From Bradyrhizobium zhengyangense (GTDB lineage Bacteria > Pseudomonadota > Alphaproteobacteria > Rhizobiales > Xanthobacteraceae), in assembly GCF_022012435.1 (NCBI RefSeq), contig NZ_JAKLUA010000001.1, positions 1,674,001-1,738,000 of the forward strand: a DNA stretch of 64,000 bases, read 5' to 3'. This document shows, piece by piece, positions 52,931 to 61,019 of this stretch (its first letter is position 1; each line of letters opens with the position of its first letter). The notes beneath the pieces were generated by a model. That model was not told where the DNA came from. It saw only the letters and a list, made by a program, of their open reading frames with translations, and ran no database searches. The position numbers and the translations under genes are program-made.

Positions 52931-55874
52931 ACACGCTCCGCACCTCGCTTTGCGTCTCCTTCACGCGCGCCTCCAGCGAGGAAAAATCCGGCGCATCGCC
53001 GGCGCGCGCCATCACGCGCTGAAGATCGGTGCCCGCCGTTTCCGGCTTGAAGCGGTCGCTGACGCAGAGCCGCAGGATCTGCGTCAAATCGTGGTAGAGC
53101 CGCGCGGCCGCCCGCAGGATCTCCGCTTCCGACTGCGGCAGAACGCCGAGTCTGGCTGCATTCTCCAGCACCTGCACCGTCGAGACATCGAGAATGTCAG
53201 GCTTGTCGTGGGCATGGACGAGCTGGAGATATTGGGCGATGAAATCGATATCGACCATGCCGCCCGACGCGTACTTCAAGTCCCAATAATCGGTCTCGCC
53301 CTTCTCCTGCGCGATCGCGCGGCGCATGTCGGCGACGTCGTTGGCGGTGGTGACCGGATCGCGACGGCGGGTCAGGACGTCGCGGATGATGCTCTCGATG
53401 CGCGCCGTGAATTCTCCCGACGCCGACACCACGCGCGCGCGCGTCAATGCCATGTGCTCCCAGGTCCAGGCCTCATTGGCCTGGTAGTCCGCGAAGGAGA
53501 CAAGGCTCGATGCCACGGGACCTGCGCGCCCCGAGGGCCGCAGCCGCATGTCGATCTCGTAGAGCACGCCGTAATTGGTGCGGGTCGTGAAGGCGCTGAT
53601 CAGGCGCTGGGTGAGGCGAGCGAAATAGTGCGCGCCCTGCAGTGACCTCTCGCCGTCCGAGTCCGGATTATCGCTGTCGAAATCGTACAGCAGGATCAGA
53701 TCGAGATCCGATGACGCGGTCATCTCGCGGCTGCCGAGCCGGCCCATGGCGATGATCGCCGTCTCCTGCCCCTTGATCCGGCCGTGCTGGGCAGCAAAGC
53801 GATCGGCGACGAGACCGTGCACGGTGTGAACGATGCCCTCGGCGACGTCGGCAAAAGCCGTGCTCGCCTGCTGCGCCGAGACGGTGCCGGACAAGATGCG
53901 CGTGCCGATCAGGAACAGGCTCTCTTGTCCGAACAGGCGCAGCCGATCCAGAAACTCCTCATAGGAGCCCGCGTCCTGCACCGTGGTCGCAAGCCGTGCC
54001 GACAATTCCTGACGATCCGGCATAGCGCCGAAGAAGCGCGGATCGATCAGACCGTCCATCAACTGCGGTTGCCGCGCCAGCATCTCGCCGAGCCGGGGCG
54101 CCGCGCCAAGCACCAGCGCCACCAGCGCGACGAGATCGCGGTTCTGGCTCAGCAGCGTGATCAGCCTGCCGCCGCGCTGGAGCGCCCTCAGGAAGTGATC
54201 GAATGCCGTCACCGCGCGGTCCGGCTCCTCCGCATGCGCCAGGCCCTCTATCAAAGCCGGCACGAACTCGACGAAAGCGCTGCGCGTCTGCTTGTTGCGG
54301 AATACGCGATAGTCGCCGGTGAGCCAGTCGCAGACGGTCTGGGCCACGGCAGCGGGCTTCTTGAAGCCGAGCGTCGTCAAGTGCTGAAGCAGGCGCGGAT
54401 CATCGGGACCGGCGCGATAGTCGATCGCCGGCAGGCTTGCCGTGCCGGTGGGATCATCGCCCTCGAACAGCTTTTCGTAATGCCCCTGGACGATCTCGAG
54501 CTGGCGCAACAGGTCGCGCGCGAAGGCCTCGCGGCTGGCATAACCGAAGAACCAGGCGAAGCGCTCGACCGCCTCCTTGTCCTCCGGCAGCGCATGGGTC
54601 TGCTCGTCGGCGATCATCTGGAGACGATGTTCGACCCGGCGCAGGAATTCATAGGCCGTGGTCAGCTCGTCGCGGGCCGCAGAGGTGATCCAGTTGCGAG
54701 CGGCGAGGATATTGAGCGCGGCCAGCGTCGGCCGTACCCGCAGCTCCGGATGGCGGCCGCCCGCGATCAGCTGCTGGGTCTGGGCGAAGAACTCGATCTC
54801 GCGGATGCCCCCGCGGCCGACCTTGACGTTGTGACCCTCGACCGCGATCTCGCTCTGGCCGCGATAGGTCTGCATCTGGCGCTTCATGTCGTGCACGTCG
54901 GCAAGCGCAGCGAAGTCGAGATGCTTGCGCCAGACGAAGGGTGCGATTTCGGCGAGCAGCGCCTCGCCCGCTCTGGGGTCGCCGGCACACGCCCGCGCCT
55001 TGATCATCGCGGCGCGCTCCCAGGTGCGCCCTTCCCGCTCGTAATAGTTCAGCGCGGCGTCGCGCGAGATCGCGACTTGCGTCGAGGATGGATCGGGCCG
55101 CAGCCGCAGATCGACGCGGAACACGTAACCGTCATAGGTGCGCTGCTGGAGGATGCGCGCCATGCCTTGCGTCACCCGGACGAAGAACGGCTGCGGCTCG
55201 ATATCGGGCACAAGCGTCGTGGCATCGGGGTCGAAGAACACAATAAGATCGATGTCGCTGGAATAGTTCAGCTCGCCGGCGCCCATCTTGCCCATGGCGA
55301 GAACGATCAGGCCGCAGCCGACCTCCGGCGCTTCCAGATCGGGCGGCAGAATTTTCCCGCGTGCGGCTTCCTGACGCAGCAGGTACTGGAGCGCCGCCTG
55401 CACCGAGGAAACCGCGAGATCGGTCAATGCCGCCGTCACCCGCATCACCGGCCAGACCCCGCCGATATCGCACAGCGCGATCAGCAGCGCGGCCTCCGCC
55501 TTCATGCGGCGAAGCAGCCGCATCACCTCGGCCTCGTCAGGTGCGGCAATCACGGCACCCCTCGCCTCCGCGATCAGCGCGGCGAGATGCGCATCCGGAT
55601 CGCATTCGAGCAATCGGATCAGGCGGATCGGATCGGCGCGCACCAGATCGAACAAATAAGGCGAGAATTCCGCGATGGCGGCGAGAATAGTCCGGACAAG
55701 CGGATGGACCAGCAGCGCGTCCAGACGGGCTGATGGTGCCGGCTCGAGCCCGGCCAGCCAGCCTTCAAAGCGTCGTTCGTCTGATGCGGAAGCGGCAATA
55801 TGGGGAGCCTCCGCGAAGCGCGCGGCCAGGCTCTCACCATGCTTGTCCGCGTTTCCCGGCGCGGAGTGGTTCAT
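52896..55874 (-). CDS. glnE: Bifunctional glutamine synthetase adenylyltransferase/deadenylylase
   Basis: A 992-residue enzyme with two nucleotidyltransferase domains, both with the GSxxMxxxSDxDL-type pattern: MGAGELNYSSDIDLIVFFDP in the N-terminal half and MGRLGSREMTASSDLDLILLYDFD in the C-terminal half. The C-terminal domain adds AMP to glutamine synthetase and the N-terminal domain removes it, under PII control. Its start overlaps the stop of the upstream sensor kinase (ATGA). It converges with fdsD, sharing 35 bases. Confidence 0.97.
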   Translation of the reverse strand: MNHSAPGNADKHGESLAARFAEAPHIAASASDERRFEGWLAGLEPAPSARLDALLVHPLVRTILAAIAEFSPYLFDLVRADPIRLIRLLECDPDAHLAALIAEARGAVIAAPDEAEVMRLLRRMKAEAALLIALCDIGGVWPVMRVTAALTDLAVSSVQAALQYLLRQEAARGKILPPDLEAPEVGCGLIVLAMGKMGAGELNYSSDIDLIVFFDPDATTLVPDIEPQPFFVRVTQGMARILQQRTYDGYVFRVDLRLRPDPSSTQVAISRDAALNYYEREGRTWERAAMIKARACAGDPRAGEALLAEIAPFVWRKHLDFAALADVHDMKRQMQTYRGQSEIAVEGHNVKVGRGGIREIEFFAQTQQLIAGGRHPELRVRPTLAALNILAARNWITSAARDELTTAYEFLRRVEHRLQMIADEQTHALPEDKEAVERFAWFFGYASREAFARDLLRQLEIVQGHYEKLFEGDDPTGTASLPAIDYRAGPDDPRLLQHLTTLGFKKPAAVAQTVCDWLTGDYRVFRNKQTRSAFVEFVPALIEGLAHAEEPDRAVTAFDHFLRALQRGGRLITLLSQNRDLVALVALVLGAAPRLGEMLARQPQLMDGLIDPRFFGAMPDRQELSARLATTVQDAGSYEEFLDRLRLFGQESLFLIGTRILSGTVSAQQASTAFADVAEGIVHTVHGLVADRFAAQHGRIKGQETAIIAMGRLGSREMTASSDLDLILLYDFDSDNPDSDGERSLQGAHYFARLTQRLISAFTTRTNYGVLYEIDMRLRPSGRAGPVASSLVSFADYQANEAWTWEHMALTRARVVSASGEFTARIESIIRDVLTRRRDPVTTANDVADMRRAIAQEKGETDYWDLKYASGGMVDIDFIAQYLQLVHAHDKPDILDVSTVQVLENAARLGVLPQSEAEILRAAARLYHDLTQILRLCVSDRFKPETAGTDLQRVMARAGDAPDFSSLEARVKETQSEVRSVFSALLEGKPSA

Positions 55875-57331
55875 GCCACCTTCTGTGGCACATCCGCTAC
55901 TGGAGGAGCAACCCTGTCGCCGGCCCCCGCGCGTGCCGGCAGCACCAGCGTGGCGACAAGACCGGGCTGGGCATCGCTCAGCCGCAATTCGCCACCGTGC
56001 AATGTGGCCACGGCAGACGCGAGGCTGAGGCCGAGGCCGGAGCCGGGCATGGTGCGGCTCGCTTCCAGCCGCACGAAGCGCTCGACGACGTGCTTGCGAT
56101 CGCCTTCCGGAATTCCGGGGCCCCGATCGGTGACGCTGAGTAGCACCTGATCGCCTTCGCGCCTCGCCTCGATCGTGATCTGCCTCGAGTCCATGCTAAC
56201 CACTGACCCCGCCGGCTGCGCGGCCGGCTTGCCGTACTTGATCGCATTCTCGACCAGATTGGCGAGCGCCTGGCTGATCAATTCGCGATTGCCGTGGATG
56301 GGCGCTGCTTCCGTCTTGACCTTCAAGGTCATGCCGTCGTCCTCGGCGAGCGGCTCGTAGAGCTCGTGAATGCCGCCTGCGACGTCGGCGGCATCGAAAT
56401 CGTCCATGTTGCCGCGCGCCTGACCGGACTCCGCGCGTGCGATCATCAGAAGCGCGTTGAAGGTGCGGATCAGCCCGTCGGACTCCTCGATGGTCCGCTC
56501 CAGCGCGGCGCGATAGTCGGCCTCGCAACCGGATTTCGCCAGCGCCTCCTCGGCGCGGTTGCGCAACCGTGTCAGCGGCGTCTTGAGGTCATGGGCGATG
56601 TTGTCGGAGACCTCCTTGAGCCCCGACATCAGCGCCTCGATCCGCTCGAGCATGGCGTTGAGGTTCTCGGCGAGGCGGTCGAGCTCGTCGCCGCTGCGCC
56701 CGACCGGCAGGCGCTCGCTGAGATCGCCGATCATGATGCGGTGCGCCGTGCCGGACATCGCGTCGATGCGCGTCAACACCCTGCGCGCGACGAAGACGCC
56801 GCCGCCGAGGCCGAGCACGACGACGATCAAGATCGACCATTGCGCGGCCTTGGCGACGATGCCGAACAGCCGCCGCCGCTCGGCGAGGTCGCGGCCGATC
56901 AAAAGGCGAAAGCCATTTTCCAATTCGGTGACCCGAACGAGCGCGCGATGGTCGCGGTCATCCGTATCCTCGATCCGCCGATAGGCGGTCTCGGACCAGC
57001 CAATGGTCGCCATCACGCCCGGTGCCAGCGAGCCGACATTGCCGGCGATCGCCTGGCCGGTGGGCGAGGTCAGGAGGTAGAGATTGGCGCCCGGCCGCAA
57101 CGACCGGTACTCGATTGCACGCGCGACGAAGAACAGGCCGCGACGGCCGTAGATCTCGTTGATCTCCGAGGTCTCGGCATTCACCGTCTGCGTGATCTCT
57201 TCGGTAATCAGCCGCCGCGTATTCCAGGCGAAATAGCCGAGCAGCGAGGCCGCGAAAATCGCGAACAGGAACAGGTAGACCAGCGTCAGCCGGAATGCCG
57301 TGGTGCGGACGAGTTTACCGAATGCCGTCAC
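55871..57331 (-). CDS. HAMP-domain sensor histidine kinase separated from its regulator
   Basis: A 486-residue kinase: two transmembrane helices (LTLVYLFLFAIFAASLLGYFAW and SILIVVVLGLGGGVFVARRVL) around a periplasmic sensor, then a HAMP domain (DAMSGTAHRIMIGDLSERLPV). The H-box SDNIAHDLKTPLTRLRNRAE is at about residue 246, and the ATPase has NLVENAIKYG, DRGPGIPEGDR and GSGLGLSLASAVATLHGG. The start GTG at 57331 gives MTAFGKLVRTT; an ancestral ATG just before GCATTCGG seems to have been replaced by insertion of the S8 cassette. The likely regulator is at 60339. It is coupled to glnE downstream. Confidence 0.9.
   Translation of the reverse strand: MTAFGKLVRTTAFRLTLVYLFLFAIFAASLLGYFAWNTRRLITEEITQTVNAETSEINEIYGRRGLFFVARAIEYRSLRPGANLYLLTSPTGQAIAGNVGSLAPGVMATIGWSETAYRRIEDTDDRDHRALVRVTELENGFRLLIGRDLAERRRLFGIVAKAAQWSILIVVVLGLGGGVFVARRVLTRIDAMSGTAHRIMIGDLSERLPVGRSGDELDRLAENLNAMLERIEALMSGLKEVSDNIAHDLKTPLTRLRNRAEEALAKSGCEADYRAALERTIEESDGLIRTFNALLMIARAESGQARGNMDDFDAADVAGGIHELYEPLAEDDGMTLKVKTEAAPIHGNRELISQALANLVENAIKYGKPAAQPAGSVVSMDSRQITIEARREGDQVLLSVTDRGPGIPEGDRKHVVERFVRLEASRTMPGSGLGLSLASAVATLHGGELRLSDAQPGLVATLVLPARAGAGDRVAPPVADVPQKVA
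57319..57326. repeat. 8-bp direct repeat, left end of inserted cassette
   Basis: CGAATGCC, identical to 60343-60350, flanks the lower-GC cassette. Here it is codons 3-5 of the kinase gene. Confidence 0.65.
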
Positions 57332-57669
57332 GATTATACATCCGTCCAGAACCCGATGCGACGACAGGAAAGCCGGCGCCCCAATTTCCGACTTTGTTTC
57401 AATGATTTAGTCTCGCTAATTATGCCATACAGTGTTGCTGGGCTCTAACCAAATTAAATCGAAGAAAGCTGGCGCCCTACTCTGGTCGCGCCGCCCTTCT
57501 AACCAGCAGTCCGGAAAAGTGGCGGGTGCGGGGGACCGCCACACTTGAAGAATGCTTACCGCAGATGCCGCCTTGTCCTCGGCCGCGGCTCTGGCGTTCG
57601 TAAGCCAAAATCGGCAAAGCTGATCGGAATTGAAGGAACGCAACGGTGCGGGTTACGGAGTACCGCAAT
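57332..57669. other. Non-coding flank of the inserted cassette
   Basis: About 340 bases between the S8 protease stop and the kinase start. No supported gene, RNA or clear terminator was found. It may hold the present kinase promoter; the sequence around 57400-57440 is AT-rich. Confidence 0.4.
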
Positions 57670-59400
57670 TTAGCTCTTCTGCTTATGGTATCCAAACCGA
57701 GGATTCCAATTCGGCAATGCCTTAAGTCCGTAGGTCTCGACCAGTAACGTAGCAACATCCGTGCACTTTGAACGCTTGGCCGAATTAAGCGTCACGACAG
57801 CATCAGCGCATGCACGAGGACTCGCAAAGCTGGTTCCATATTCTCCTCCGGCAAGATCGGCCAGGTGCGCCATGTAAGGAGACCCGGTAGGATTTCGCGT
57901 TCTATCATACTCGGCCGACGGCCCTCGGGATGAACCTTCCCACATTTGACCGGAAGCCCGCAGGCCAGCAACGCTAAGAACCTTTTCCTCTGTAGCAGGC
58001 ACCGAGATGCTTCCCTCCGGTCCCCCCTCCACAAATGCTGTAACGCCAGAAGCATCCTCCGCAATCACGATCCAGCTATTGACCGCAACATCCTGTGTCG
58101 CTTCCAACTTGAAGCGCACCAACATCTGGGGCAATGCTGACGCTAGTCCTATCGCGCTCAGGGCGAAAGCAATGCAACTGAAATTGTTTTGGCATTTCGC
58201 CGTGAAGAGGGAGTGCGTCGCGAGCGTTCCTGGAAGGCCAATCGAAGCAGTGGTGAGAAGCGAGCCTGCGATCGACCCATCGATCGTCAGCGTGCCATGG
58301 TTGATGGGCGAACCACCTCCGACGATTTCATAGATATCGGCGTCGATCGAAACCCCCTTGGCCGAAGATTCATCCCACCAAAATTCGACAAGGACTTCCT
58401 TGCAATTCGCTGCGATGCGTAGCGGGAGATACTCAGGCTCATTTGCTAATATTGTCCGCTTGCCGGAGCATCCCTTGCCCCCCTCATTACCGGCAGCAGC
58501 GACAACGTAACGATCGGATGTGACGAATGTCGTGGCTATGTAATCTTCAAGCGGTGAAGAGCCATTGTGCGGCCCTACGTGAGTGCCTAGCGACATATTG
58601 ACGGCAACGGGAATCCCGTCCGCGGTCAGTTGAGGCTCGAGAGCCTGCAAGGCGCTAAGTACTTCTGGCGTGCAGGCTTGATCGAAGCATGGACGCCCAA
58701 GTCCGATCTGATGCGAAGGAGGTTTGACCAGGGCGCAGCTTATCGTTGTATCCTTCAAATCTCCTTTGTGATCCAGGCGATCCAGCAGGACGGAAAGCAC
58801 TTTTTCCGCGTGGTCCGAGAGCTCAACTCCTGAAGTCACCGCATGCCGCAGTTTTCCGCCATAGTCATCGGGCGCGACGAGCGACGTAACCCCCATATCA
58901 ACTATGGCAGCGCCAACTTTCGCAGGACGTCCGCCAAGATTGCTTGGCGAATCAGCAGCTTTTCCCAGTAAGGCGCGACAGCGCTGATCATATGTTGAGC
59001 CGCTACCTAACGCACGAACCGGCGTGCCCAGGTCGAGATATTCGGTATCAGAAGGAACCGCGTACGACGATGCAAAAAGATCGCTGAGCCGATCGAGCGG
59101 CACCCGTCCCCAAAAGAACTGTCCTGTCTCAAATCTCCGATACTCGATAGCACCTTTTGTAGCGCTTCCAAGCAACTCTTCCACGGAGCGAGTCGTACGA
59201 CCATTGACCGGAAGCGCGGGCCATGGACCCGGTCTGTGGCGAATAACGGACAGCAGCTCTTTAGCTATTTCTTCCAACGAACACCGAACCAAACACTTCG
59301 GCTTTGGAGAAATTGGAAATGGCAGAGGGAACAGAGATTGCTCGCTTGATCCCGGCCCAAGACTGTGAATCATCATAGAGATGAGACTGGGACTGAACAT
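57670..59400 (-). CDS. Subtilisin-family (S8) serine protease, cytoplasmic
   Basis: A 576-residue protein without a signal peptide. The subtilisin triad is visible: Asp168 in GAAIVDMGV, His197 in SDHAEKVLS, Ser524 in GGEYGTSFASPRA. The oxyanion Asn305 is in VAAAGNEGGKG, and VAVNMSLGTH is a family block. Some 160 residues precede the catalytic domain (DUF-like N-terminal region with FFWGRVPLDRLSDLF), and about 200 residues lie between Asn305 and Ser524, far more than in subtilisin, so a beta-rich insertion domain (about 330-465) is present. It starts 14 bases after the upstream gene ends, so both are one operon. Target and trigger are unknown. Confidence 0.85.
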   Translation of the reverse strand: MFSPSLISMMIHSLGPGSSEQSLFPLPFPISPKPKCLVRCSLEEIAKELLSVIRHRPGPWPALPVNGRTTRSVEELLGSATKGAIEYRRFETGQFFWGRVPLDRLSDLFASSYAVPSDTEYLDLGTPVRALGSGSTYDQRCRALLGKAADSPSNLGGRPAKVGAAIVDMGVTSLVAPDDYGGKLRHAVTSGVELSDHAEKVLSVLLDRLDHKGDLKDTTISCALVKPPSHQIGLGRPCFDQACTPEVLSALQALEPQLTADGIPVAVNMSLGTHVGPHNGSSPLEDYIATTFVTSDRYVVAAAGNEGGKGCSGKRTILANEPEYLPLRIAANCKEVLVEFWWDESSAKGVSIDADIYEIVGGGSPINHGTLTIDGSIAGSLLTTASIGLPGTLATHSLFTAKCQNNFSCIAFALSAIGLASALPQMLVRFKLEATQDVAVNSWIVIAEDASGVTAFVEGGPEGSISVPATEEKVLSVAGLRASGQMWEGSSRGPSAEYDRTRNPTGSPYMAHLADLAGGEYGTSFASPRACADAVVTLNSAKRSKCTDVATLLVETYGLKALPNWNPRFGYHKQKS

Positions 59401-59414
59401 CGCCGTTCCGTCCC

Positions 59415-59996
59415 TCAGTCTGGCTGCCAACCAAATTTGAAATTTCGCGATTTAAATCTTATGAGATCTCCCTCTCGCTCAATCATATCGACGTCGGACA
59501 ATTTTTCCAGGACCTTGTCCATCCATTTTCCTTGCCTGGCTTGGCTAGCTCGAGCGAAGCGATCAGCGGATATGCGGAGATACCAGGAGAGTTCATCGCG
59601 ATTTTCTCCATGATCCAGCAAATCGTTCACAGCCGACTCTAGCTCGGCTTGGGTCATGCCAGCAGGTTTTTGCGAGAGAACTATGTAGGTGACGTAGTCG
59701 ATTGGACGCATCGTCTGAACAAGCGACTCAAGAATCGTGTGCGCCGCGCTGATCGATTCCACTCCAATCTCTAGCATTGTCGCCAAATCGGGCGCCGTAT
59801 AGAGGGCAAGTTTGACTTTGGCAGCGATCTTTATCGTCTCCCACGTGGCTTGGAGAGCTTTCAAAAGGTCAAGCCGTAAGTTGACCCCGCGAAATGCCGC
59901 CTTCTCTGGACCGGCTGGCGTACTTTCGGTGATTGCAGCGCCAGACCAAGCTCGCTGGAGCGAATTCTTTTCCTCAACAGTTATTGAATCCAACAT
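59415..59996 (-). CDS. Winged-helix-like partner of the S8 protease, unknown function
   Basis: A 193-residue protein with a helical N-terminal half (VNLRLDLLKALQATWETIKIAAKVKLALYTAPDLATMLEIGVES) and a C-terminal half that reads like a winged helix: YVTYIVLSQKPAGMTQAELESAVNDLL (helix-turn-helix), a long helix, then VLEKLSDVDMIEREGDLIRFKS (wing). This is pattern recognition, not a database match. AGGAG lies seven bases before the ATG at 59996. It directly precedes and probably controls or activates the protease gene. Lower GC than neighbours. Confidence 0.65.
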   Translation of the reverse strand: MLDSITVEEKNSLQRAWSGAAITESTPAGPEKAAFRGVNLRLDLLKALQATWETIKIAAKVKLALYTAPDLATMLEIGVESISAAHTILESLVQTMRPIDYVTYIVLSQKPAGMTQAELESAVNDLLDHGENRDELSWYLRISADRFARASQARQGKWMDKVLEKLSDVDMIEREGDLIRFKSRNFKFGWQPD

Positions 59997-60056
59997 GCGC
60001 ATACTCCTGATCGGAGAAGCAAATAAACGACTGGCTATTTCGAGCCGCGCCCACAA

Positions 60057-60338
60057 TTGTTCTTCGGGTTACATCGGCTGCAAAACCAGCCGGTGAACTG
60101 ATCTAACGGGAGCTGCCCTTCAAACAAAACGGGGACGTAGATCAAATCTAAAATCGCCCAACAATAGCAGCGAGCGTCATACAACTTCAAGGGGTATGTT
60201 TTACTTTTCTCAAGTAGACCGCCCCTGACCGCAATGGCAATTGCGGTTTCAGACCATGCTCAACCACCGAGACGCAGCAGCCCACCGACGAGCACATGGG
60301 CGCAGGAATGCAGTGCGCCGCAGCGGCGCTCAAGGCTT
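60057..60338. other. Spacer upstream of the cassette genes
   Basis: About 280 bases between the cassette partner gene and the response-regulator stop. It probably holds the cassette promoter (leftward) and the right boundary of the insertion. No RNA gene or terminator was recognised. Confidence 0.4.
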
Positions 60339-61019
60339 CTATCGAATGCCATCTCTTATCATGTACCCGGCGCCGCGGATCGTGTGCAGCAGCGGCCGCT
60401 CGAAGCCCTTGTCGATCTTGGAGCGCAGCCGCGAAATGTGCACGTCGATCACGTTGGTCTGCGGATCGAAATGATAGTCCCAGACATTCTCCAGCAGCAT
60501 GGTGCGCGTCACCACCTGGCCGGCATGCTTCATCAGATATTCGAGCAGGCGGAATTCGCGCGGCTGCAGCGTCAGCTCGTCCTTGCCGCGGGCGACGCGG
60601 TGGGAGAGCCGGTCCAGCTCGAGGTCGCCGACGCGATAGAGCGTGTCCTCGGCGGGTCCGCCGCGACGGCGCGACAGCACCTCGACGCGGGCCAGCAGCT
60701 CGGCGAAGGAATAGGGCTTTGGCAGATAGTCGTCGCCGCCGGCACGCAGACCCTTGATGCGGTCGTCGACCTGACCGAGCGCGGAGAGAATCAAAACCGG
60801 CGTCGTGTCGCCCTTGTCGCGCAGCGCGCCGATCAGCGACAGCCCGTCGCGCTTGGGCAGCATGCGATCGACCACCAGCACGTCGTAATCGCCGCCCTCG
60901 GCCATGGCGAGGCCTTCCTCGCCGTCAGCGGCGTGGTCGGCAATGTGCCCGACCTCGCGAAACGCCTTCACGAGATAGTCGGCGGATTCGCGGTCGTCTT
61001 CGATGATGAGGAGGCGCAT
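60339..61019 (-). CDS. OmpR-family response regulator
   Basis: A 226-residue regulator: receiver domain with acidic pocket IIEDDRESA, phospho-acceptor Asp in VLVVDRMLPKRDG, Thr/Ser and Lys in LILSALG and LPKPYSF. The DNA-binding winged helix shows LTLQPREFRLLEYLMKHAGQVVTRTMLLENVW and VDVHISRLRSKIDKGFERPLLHTIRGAGYMIRDG. It ends with the disrupted overlap region (GGCATTCGATAG). Its cognate kinase is probably the gene at 55871-57331, now separated by the S8 cassette. GAGGAG precedes the start. Confidence 0.93.
   Translation of the reverse strand: MRLLIIEDDRESADYLVKAFREVGHIADHAADGEEGLAMAEGGDYDVLVVDRMLPKRDGLSLIGALRDKGDTTPVLILSALGQVDDRIKGLRAGGDDYLPKPYSFAELLARVEVLSRRRGGPAEDTLYRVGDLELDRLSHRVARGKDELTLQPREFRLLEYLMKHAGQVVTRTMLLENVWDYHFDPQTNVIDVHISRLRSKIDKGFERPLLHTIRGAGYMIRDGIR
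60343..60350. repeat. 8-bp direct repeat, right end of inserted cassette
   Basis: CGAATGCC, the second copy, inside the last codons of the response-regulator gene. Three bases after it also match the left copy at two positions. Confidence 0.65.

Follow-up and report, generated by a model that had tools for sequence, protein, structure and literature searches.

We found that the overlap between a response-regulator gene and a histidine-kinase gene is an integration hotspot in Bradyrhizobium, and that the 3-kb cassette which parts these two genes in the stretch of 64,000 nucleotides analysed here (the window) is very probably the remnant of a site-specific mobile element, similar to a cis-mobilizable element (CIME), that has lost its integrase and kept its ends and a subtilase cargo. 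According to the mechanism that we propose, the attachment site, with the core CATGATCCGTGACGG, would be the overlap of the regulator 3' end with the kinase 5' end, and the elements using it would form a family with a tyrosine integrase of the Arm-DNA-bind_3 type. Each element would bear a copy of the last codons of the regulator, so that the regulator is restored on integration, and the displaced native end would still supply the start of the kinase. The window cassette would be such an element after decay: its two ends and a cargo of two genes, the subtilase and its partner, would remain, and of the integrase only the beginning of the gene. As to the order of events, we infer that a larger element came first.

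The genes at this locus are arranged in the order DegP/Do-type protease, response regulator, histidine kinase and glnE (Table 1). A first-pass annotation, made from the letters of the window, had described the cassette as a foreign insert of low GC content between two copies of an 8-bp repeat. Both exact copies of CGAATGCC and the two interior genes lie where it had placed them, and the GC content is indeed lower inside (54.0% for 57327-60342) than in the remaining window (63.5%). Codon usage, which it had proposed to examine, deviates in the same way, with a GC3 of 0.54-0.55 in the two cassette genes versus 0.82-0.89 in glnE, kinase, regulator and degP. The 8-bp repeat sits inside a 14-nt imperfect direct repeat, identical at 12 of 14 positions. 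Among 1200 pairs of 40-nt windows lying about 3.0 kb apart in the 64-kb window, 51 also have some 8-mer in common, so that the 8-bp repeat alone is weak evidence. No inverted repeat pairing the two ends of the cassette was present among the longest 25 of 48 inverted pairs, and a promoter scan gave one site, with 1.8 expected.

Table 1. Features of the regulator/kinase locus and of the cassette, in window positions.
Feature	Position	Strand	Basis
Inserted element	57333..60357	.	Limits from empty-site comparison; exact crossover inferred
8-bp repeat, kinase-side copy	57319..57326	.	Exact sequence match
8-bp repeat, regulator-side copy	60343..60350	.	Exact sequence match
Kinase-side attachment end, native CGTGACGGCATTCG	57319..57332	-	Same as empty sites; holds kinase GTG 57329-57331
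Regulator-side attachment end CATGATAAGAGATGGCATTCGATAG	60339..60363	-	About 60339-60357 element-borne, CATGAT native
Histidine-kinase gene, intact	55871..57331	-	HATPase_c, HAMP and HisKA over cut-off
OmpR-type response-regulator gene with element-patched 3' end	60339..61019	-	Response_reg and Trans_reg_C over cut-off
Vestige of integrase gene 5' end	57431..57553	+	nhmmer profile; strongest part 57431-57477
Subtilase (peptidase S8) gene, 576 aa	57670..59400	-	PF00082, 39.3 bits (cut-off 21.8)
Partner gene, 195 aa, without known family	59415..60002	-	G106 homolog in same place

Using the genomes of 265 congeners, we found a match to the kinase in 259 and to the regulator in 262. The site was surveyed in the 129 genomes in which both genes were located (150 places were listed per gene), a sample biased toward genomes most like the window. 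Emptiness was scored from gene spacing, and five empty sites were also read as sequence. Regulator and kinase overlap, and the site is therefore empty, in 98 of the 129 genomes, by 14 nt in 97 of them and by 11 nt in one. In 26, the window genome counted in, the two genes share contig and strand and have an insert between them, and in five the genes lie on different contigs or strands. Three of these five (G034, G169, G135) have occupied-type ends and are scored as occupied, unlike the other two (G206, G016), which gives 29 occupied genomes out of 129. The first-pass annotation had held that an arrangement common to the whole genus, or a lack of genomes with the two genes adjacent, would speak against an insertion; since empty sites exist beside varied occupied arrangements, neither is the case. 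A busy hotspot is exposed, targeted at the place where two signalling genes overlap.

The inserts differ widely in size. The spacings are 389, 391, 391, 1874, 1901, 1924 and 3010 bp for the small ones (3010 bp being the window), 3336, 4125, 4439, 7088, 7099, 7109 and 8449 bp for those of middle size, and 21 to 174 kb for 12 large ones; the content of the 14 inserts read whole is of several unrelated kinds. The foreign insert postulated in the first pass thus exists, though not as a solitary precise insertion: the cassette would be a decayed member of a varied set of elements at one attachment site. Ten of the other ends read there belong to different types and carry no integrase end of the Arm-DNA-bind_3 family, so that elements of several kinds share the site, which weighs against our reading.

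Several of the smaller inserts fall into groups. Those of 389-391 bp (L034, L035 and L036, in G110, G234 and G249) have one open reading frame for a protein of 117-128 aa, and the 117-aa protein of G249 matched no Pfam family. These inserts are 74-79% identical to each other, versus 93-95% for their regulators. In the 1.9-kb inserts (L037, L038 and L039, in G213, G092 and G082), the open reading frame tested, that of L038, matches DUF1254 and DUF1214, and a unit similar to them stands in tandem after the large island of G007 (L075). The 7.1-kb inserts (L043, L044 and L045, in G160, G119 and G086) show 91-93% mutual identity, contain what look by eye like genes for a TetR-type regulator and a transporter, and bear integrase-side ends of the Arm-DNA-bind_3 family.

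The two ends of the cassette are not equivalent. At the five empty sites, GG(A/G)TACATGATCCGTGACGGCATTCGGTAA runs on into kinase sequence, and the regulator, ending in RDGIR and a stop, overlaps in another frame the kinase start GTG ACG GCA TTC GGT AA(A/G). The ancestral overlap reconstructed in the first-pass annotation is thus real and survives intact in relatives; the codons given for it, however, are a hybrid of both copies. On its kinase side the window reads GTG ACG GCA TTC GGT AAA, and in relatives the regulator reads CGT GAC GGC ATT CGG TAA over that same kinase start; an ATG start was quoted because the quoted GAT GGC comes from the non-native regulator-side copy. On the regulator side, the window has ATAAGAGATGGCATTCGATAG where relatives have ATCCGTGACGGCATTCGGTAA, with synonymous changes and a different stop codon, which argues that this flank is a gene end supplied by the element. 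Six of 25 nt at this end differ from the empty-site sequence, and the protein end MIRDGIR is unchanged.

The same pattern recurs in the occupied genomes. All 29 keep native-like sequence on the kinase side, and their regulators end in MIRDGIR (26), MIRDGMR (2) or MIRDGLR (1). The regulator end departs from the native 25 nt in 27 of the 29, the exceptions being G110 and G249, and in none of the five empty sites read. Such changed regulator ends are the mark of a site-specific integrase whose element carries a spare gene end (attP). The target duplication put forward in the first pass was rejected: a duplicated target site would keep both flanks native through the 8-bp copies, whereas the regulator-side copy is not native. 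In the window, the ATGAT/TATAAT segment is the most likely place of the crossover, rather than the 8-bp repeat, and the repeat would therefore be duplicated coding sequence and not the point of exchange. If the cassette is a remnant, no close relative free of the insert is expected to have AAGAGATGGCATTCGATAG as its native regulator end. Against a remnant, the window has a degenerate kinase-side end, which reads TATAATCGTGACGG where the core is CATGATCCGTGACGG.

In five relatives (G128, G152, G112, G007 and G169) a tyrosine integrase adjoins the kinase-side end. That of G169 has two in-frame stops, and that of G007 lies at an inner end, adjoining the second insert. Arm-DNA-bind_3 and Phage_int_M are over cut-off in both the G128 and the G112 protein; Phage_integrase exceeds its cut-off in G128 and falls short of it in G112. 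Partial tblastn matches (E 0.001 or better) occur at eight further loci of the site (L042, L048, L060, L062, L064, L068, L071, L085). At E <= 1e-60 the integrase was found in 5 of 32 genomes, in all five at the regulator/kinase site, and at E <= 1e-80 in 18 of 242 congeners. Twelve of these loci were read, and in all 12 no more than 0.3 kb separates the integrase start from the core (with at most four substitutions); the core runs into kinase-like sequence in ten and into a further insert in two (G077, G007). The Arm-DNA-bind_3 integrase family is thus linked to this site. The other process that the first-pass annotation had considered, a cargo island captured in a site-specific way, is supported. 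Taken together, core sequence and integrase family can serve as a marker by which islands in these genomes are found and delimited. We also noticed inverted copies of the core motif ATCCGTGACGG lying between the core and the start of the integrase gene, for example in L095, L096 and L105; they are present in 3 of the 12 loci at the tolerance used, with more seen by eye, and might be binding or control sites of the integrase.

The first-pass annotation had seen no recognisable recombinase in the cassette. This holds for an intact gene, as a tblastn search of the window with the G128 integrase yielded a single match, outside the cassette and with E 0.85, but the decayed 5' end of an integrase gene is detectable by profile. 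An nhmmer profile of 19 other integrase-side ends, built with the window excluded and including the inner end of the G007 island, matches the strongest part of the vestige with E 1.9e-4, and a profile of longer ends matches the whole of it with E 3.8e-6. These E-values may be somewhat flattering because the 19 ends were picked after pairwise scores against the window end. The vestige is the only match of the profile in the 64-kb window and lies on the expected side and strand. In a leave-one-out test, all 19 family ends matched, the window end scored E 8.3e-6, and nothing in the window outside the cassette was found. Of the ten ends of other types, with the G206 end among them, none matched on that strand and two matched weakly on the opposite one (E 0.010 and 0.014). 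At the DNA level, 25 of 29 bp are identical to the integrase starts of G128 and G152.

At the protein level, LGSNQIKSKKAGA in the vestige matches LNSSQVKSKQPGA. With two query proteins, the observed score was reached in 0 of 500 shuffles of the terminal 350 bp for each. Against a remnant, the two queries attained it in 11 and 2 of 300 trials when the whole cassette was shuffled, and with 0 and 6 of 109 tiles of the window. The profile is a stronger test than these shuffles. When the vestige was read in another frame, no Pfam family matched. Three further observations speak against the remnant reading: the vestige lies nearer the core than do the integrase starts in relatives, no shared element DNA was found in the regulator-side interior, and no intermediate element with integrase and subtilase together was found.

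Because the attachment site is the overlap of a two-component pair, each integration must save two proteins and parts the kinase from its regulator. The hotspot is also a natural experiment in which the kinase has been moved up to 174 kb away. One may even think of the elements as a reversible switch on the signalling pair, with the element end driving kinase expression and integrase-less cassettes riding on the integrases of larger islands, which we regard as unlikely. Quite unlikely, too, is a related idea by which the window cassette would be a working satellite, a small integrase-less element with functional ends that is moved by the integrases of larger elements at the site. Other small inserts do have clean ends, those of 390 bp and 1.9 kb lack an integrase start, and each of these two sizes recurs in three genomes, one 1.9-kb type being also found in tandem with the large island of G007. 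The 389-391-bp inserts moreover differ more than their regulators, a gap which could equally stem from faster evolution of the small inserts. The window genome, however, has no integrase of the Arm-DNA-bind_3 family at E <= 1e-60, the ends in the window are degenerate compared with those of other inserts, the cassette was found nowhere else at the site, and the integrase vestige fits decay.

It is very doubtful that a different integrase used the same overlap and that the short match to an integrase start is due to chance or is the trace of an earlier occupant. The ten other ends at the site that are of other types would agree with this, as would the degenerate core in the window and the shuffle test at the protein level, which is not decisive; the profile match, however, lies at the expected place and strand and is the sole one in the window. 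Transposition with an 8-bp target-site duplication, by a transposase acting in trans or since lost, would explain the exact repeat and the sharp GC borders but is highly improbable, since the regulator-side flank is a synonymous variant and not native, no inverted repeat among those inspected pairs the ends, many unrelated inserts use the same site, and 8-mer matches of this kind occur in 51 of 1200 pairs in the window; a transposon of that type would have native flanks at both ends and terminal inverted repeats.

As a decayed element with its ends kept, the cassette can be compared with several known systems. In the part of the source available to us, a CIME is described as a decayed ICE or IME that has lost its integration and transfer genes and kept attL and attR (PMC5704250). 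Like a CIME, the cassette keeps both attachment ends, which, though degenerate, can be recognised by comparison with empty and occupied relatives, and it has no integration or transfer gene, only two conserved genes and an integrase vestige. Accretion at one site is likewise seen in G007, with its island and second insert. In contrast, an ICE or IME origin belongs to the definition of a CIME, whereas the ancestry of the cassette is traced to an integrase-bearing element only; the place that it targets is where two signalling genes overlap, and mobility in cis is a feature of CIMEs, whereas the cassette is known from sequence alone.

Islands with a tyrosine integrase restore the target gene that they split, a principle stated for tRNA and tmRNA genes in the part of the source that we could consult (PMC4383910), and this general principle accounts for the puzzling insert. 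As in such islands, the target is restored on one side and the displaced native fragment lies on the other (29 occupied genomes), and an integrase adjoins one end in the five relatives named above. Unlike in the islands as described in that part of the source, the target is a protein gene and the displaced fragment still serves as the start of the next gene; moreover, the window cassette has no intact integrase. The symbiosis ICEs of Bradyrhizobium are large site-specific islands of the same genus, but the sites named for them in the portion of the source at hand are tRNA-Val, tRNA-Ile, tRNA-Glu, tRNA-Gln, tRNA-Pro, tRNA-Arg and ybgC, and the regulator/kinase overlap is not among them (PMC9174649). 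The integration process itself is already known; the landing site was not found described in those parts of the literature on islands and integration sites that we had at hand, PMC7656271 and PMC11476347 besides the sources cited here, which is no proof of its absence.

The larger cassette gene was assigned to the predicted peptidases S8 (subtilases), with the PF00082 match and the catalytic motifs both present. The Asp, His, Asn and Ser residues that we take to be those of the subtilase motifs are invariant between the two sequences compared, from the window and from G106. Its best sequence match among solved structures is the germination protease CspB (E 1e-10); the matched stretches carry the subtilase fold signature, but they are short and the partner gene differs from that of CspB and related germination subtilases. 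The structure model of the subtilase has a mean pLDDT of 33.5. The partner gene precedes the subtilase gene both in the window and in G106, where the homologs are 25% identical (two-sequence E 3e-15). For the partner protein no Pfam, NCBIfam or PADLOC family was over cut-off, no PADLOC anti-phage model matched either cassette protein at E <= 1, and a literature search for paired subtilases in phage defence listed no work on these two genes. The C-terminal half of the partner model consists of helices followed by two strands and might be a winged helix, which is a guess because the mean pLDDT is 56.1 and no match in the PDB was better than E 0.34. The two cargo genes probably encode a cytoplasmic protease and a partner which either controls the protease or serves as its substrate, a guess drawn from the pairing of the genes.

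The putative subtilase and its partner are a rare two-gene module, small and uncharacterised and open to testing. A search for the cassette elsewhere, as proposed in the first pass, gave none at this site in other genomes, but the subtilase was found in 3 of 257 congeners; among 385 genomes of the class, the only one with it was the window's own. Within 60 relatives there were two weak partial matches to the subtilase (G016, G055). Plasmids, phages and viral contigs gave no match, and a genome-contig collection gave none with a single-protein query and one with a two-row alignment query. At the DNA level, the cassette matches G143 with 65% identity over 0.8 kb and G011 over 39 bp. G143 (L087, L090) has the C-terminal half of the subtilase only, 67% identical to that of the window, and this fragment adjoins what look like insertion-sequence genes. 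The subtilase of G106 lies at another variable locus, whose flanks are 3.4 kb apart in G106 versus 95 bp in G235; five other genomes have spacings of 0.8 to 18 kb there. At L089:5800-5900 in G106 there is a dispersed repeat of about 80 bp; among the matches listed, each of the six congeners searched has numerous copies of it, on either strand.
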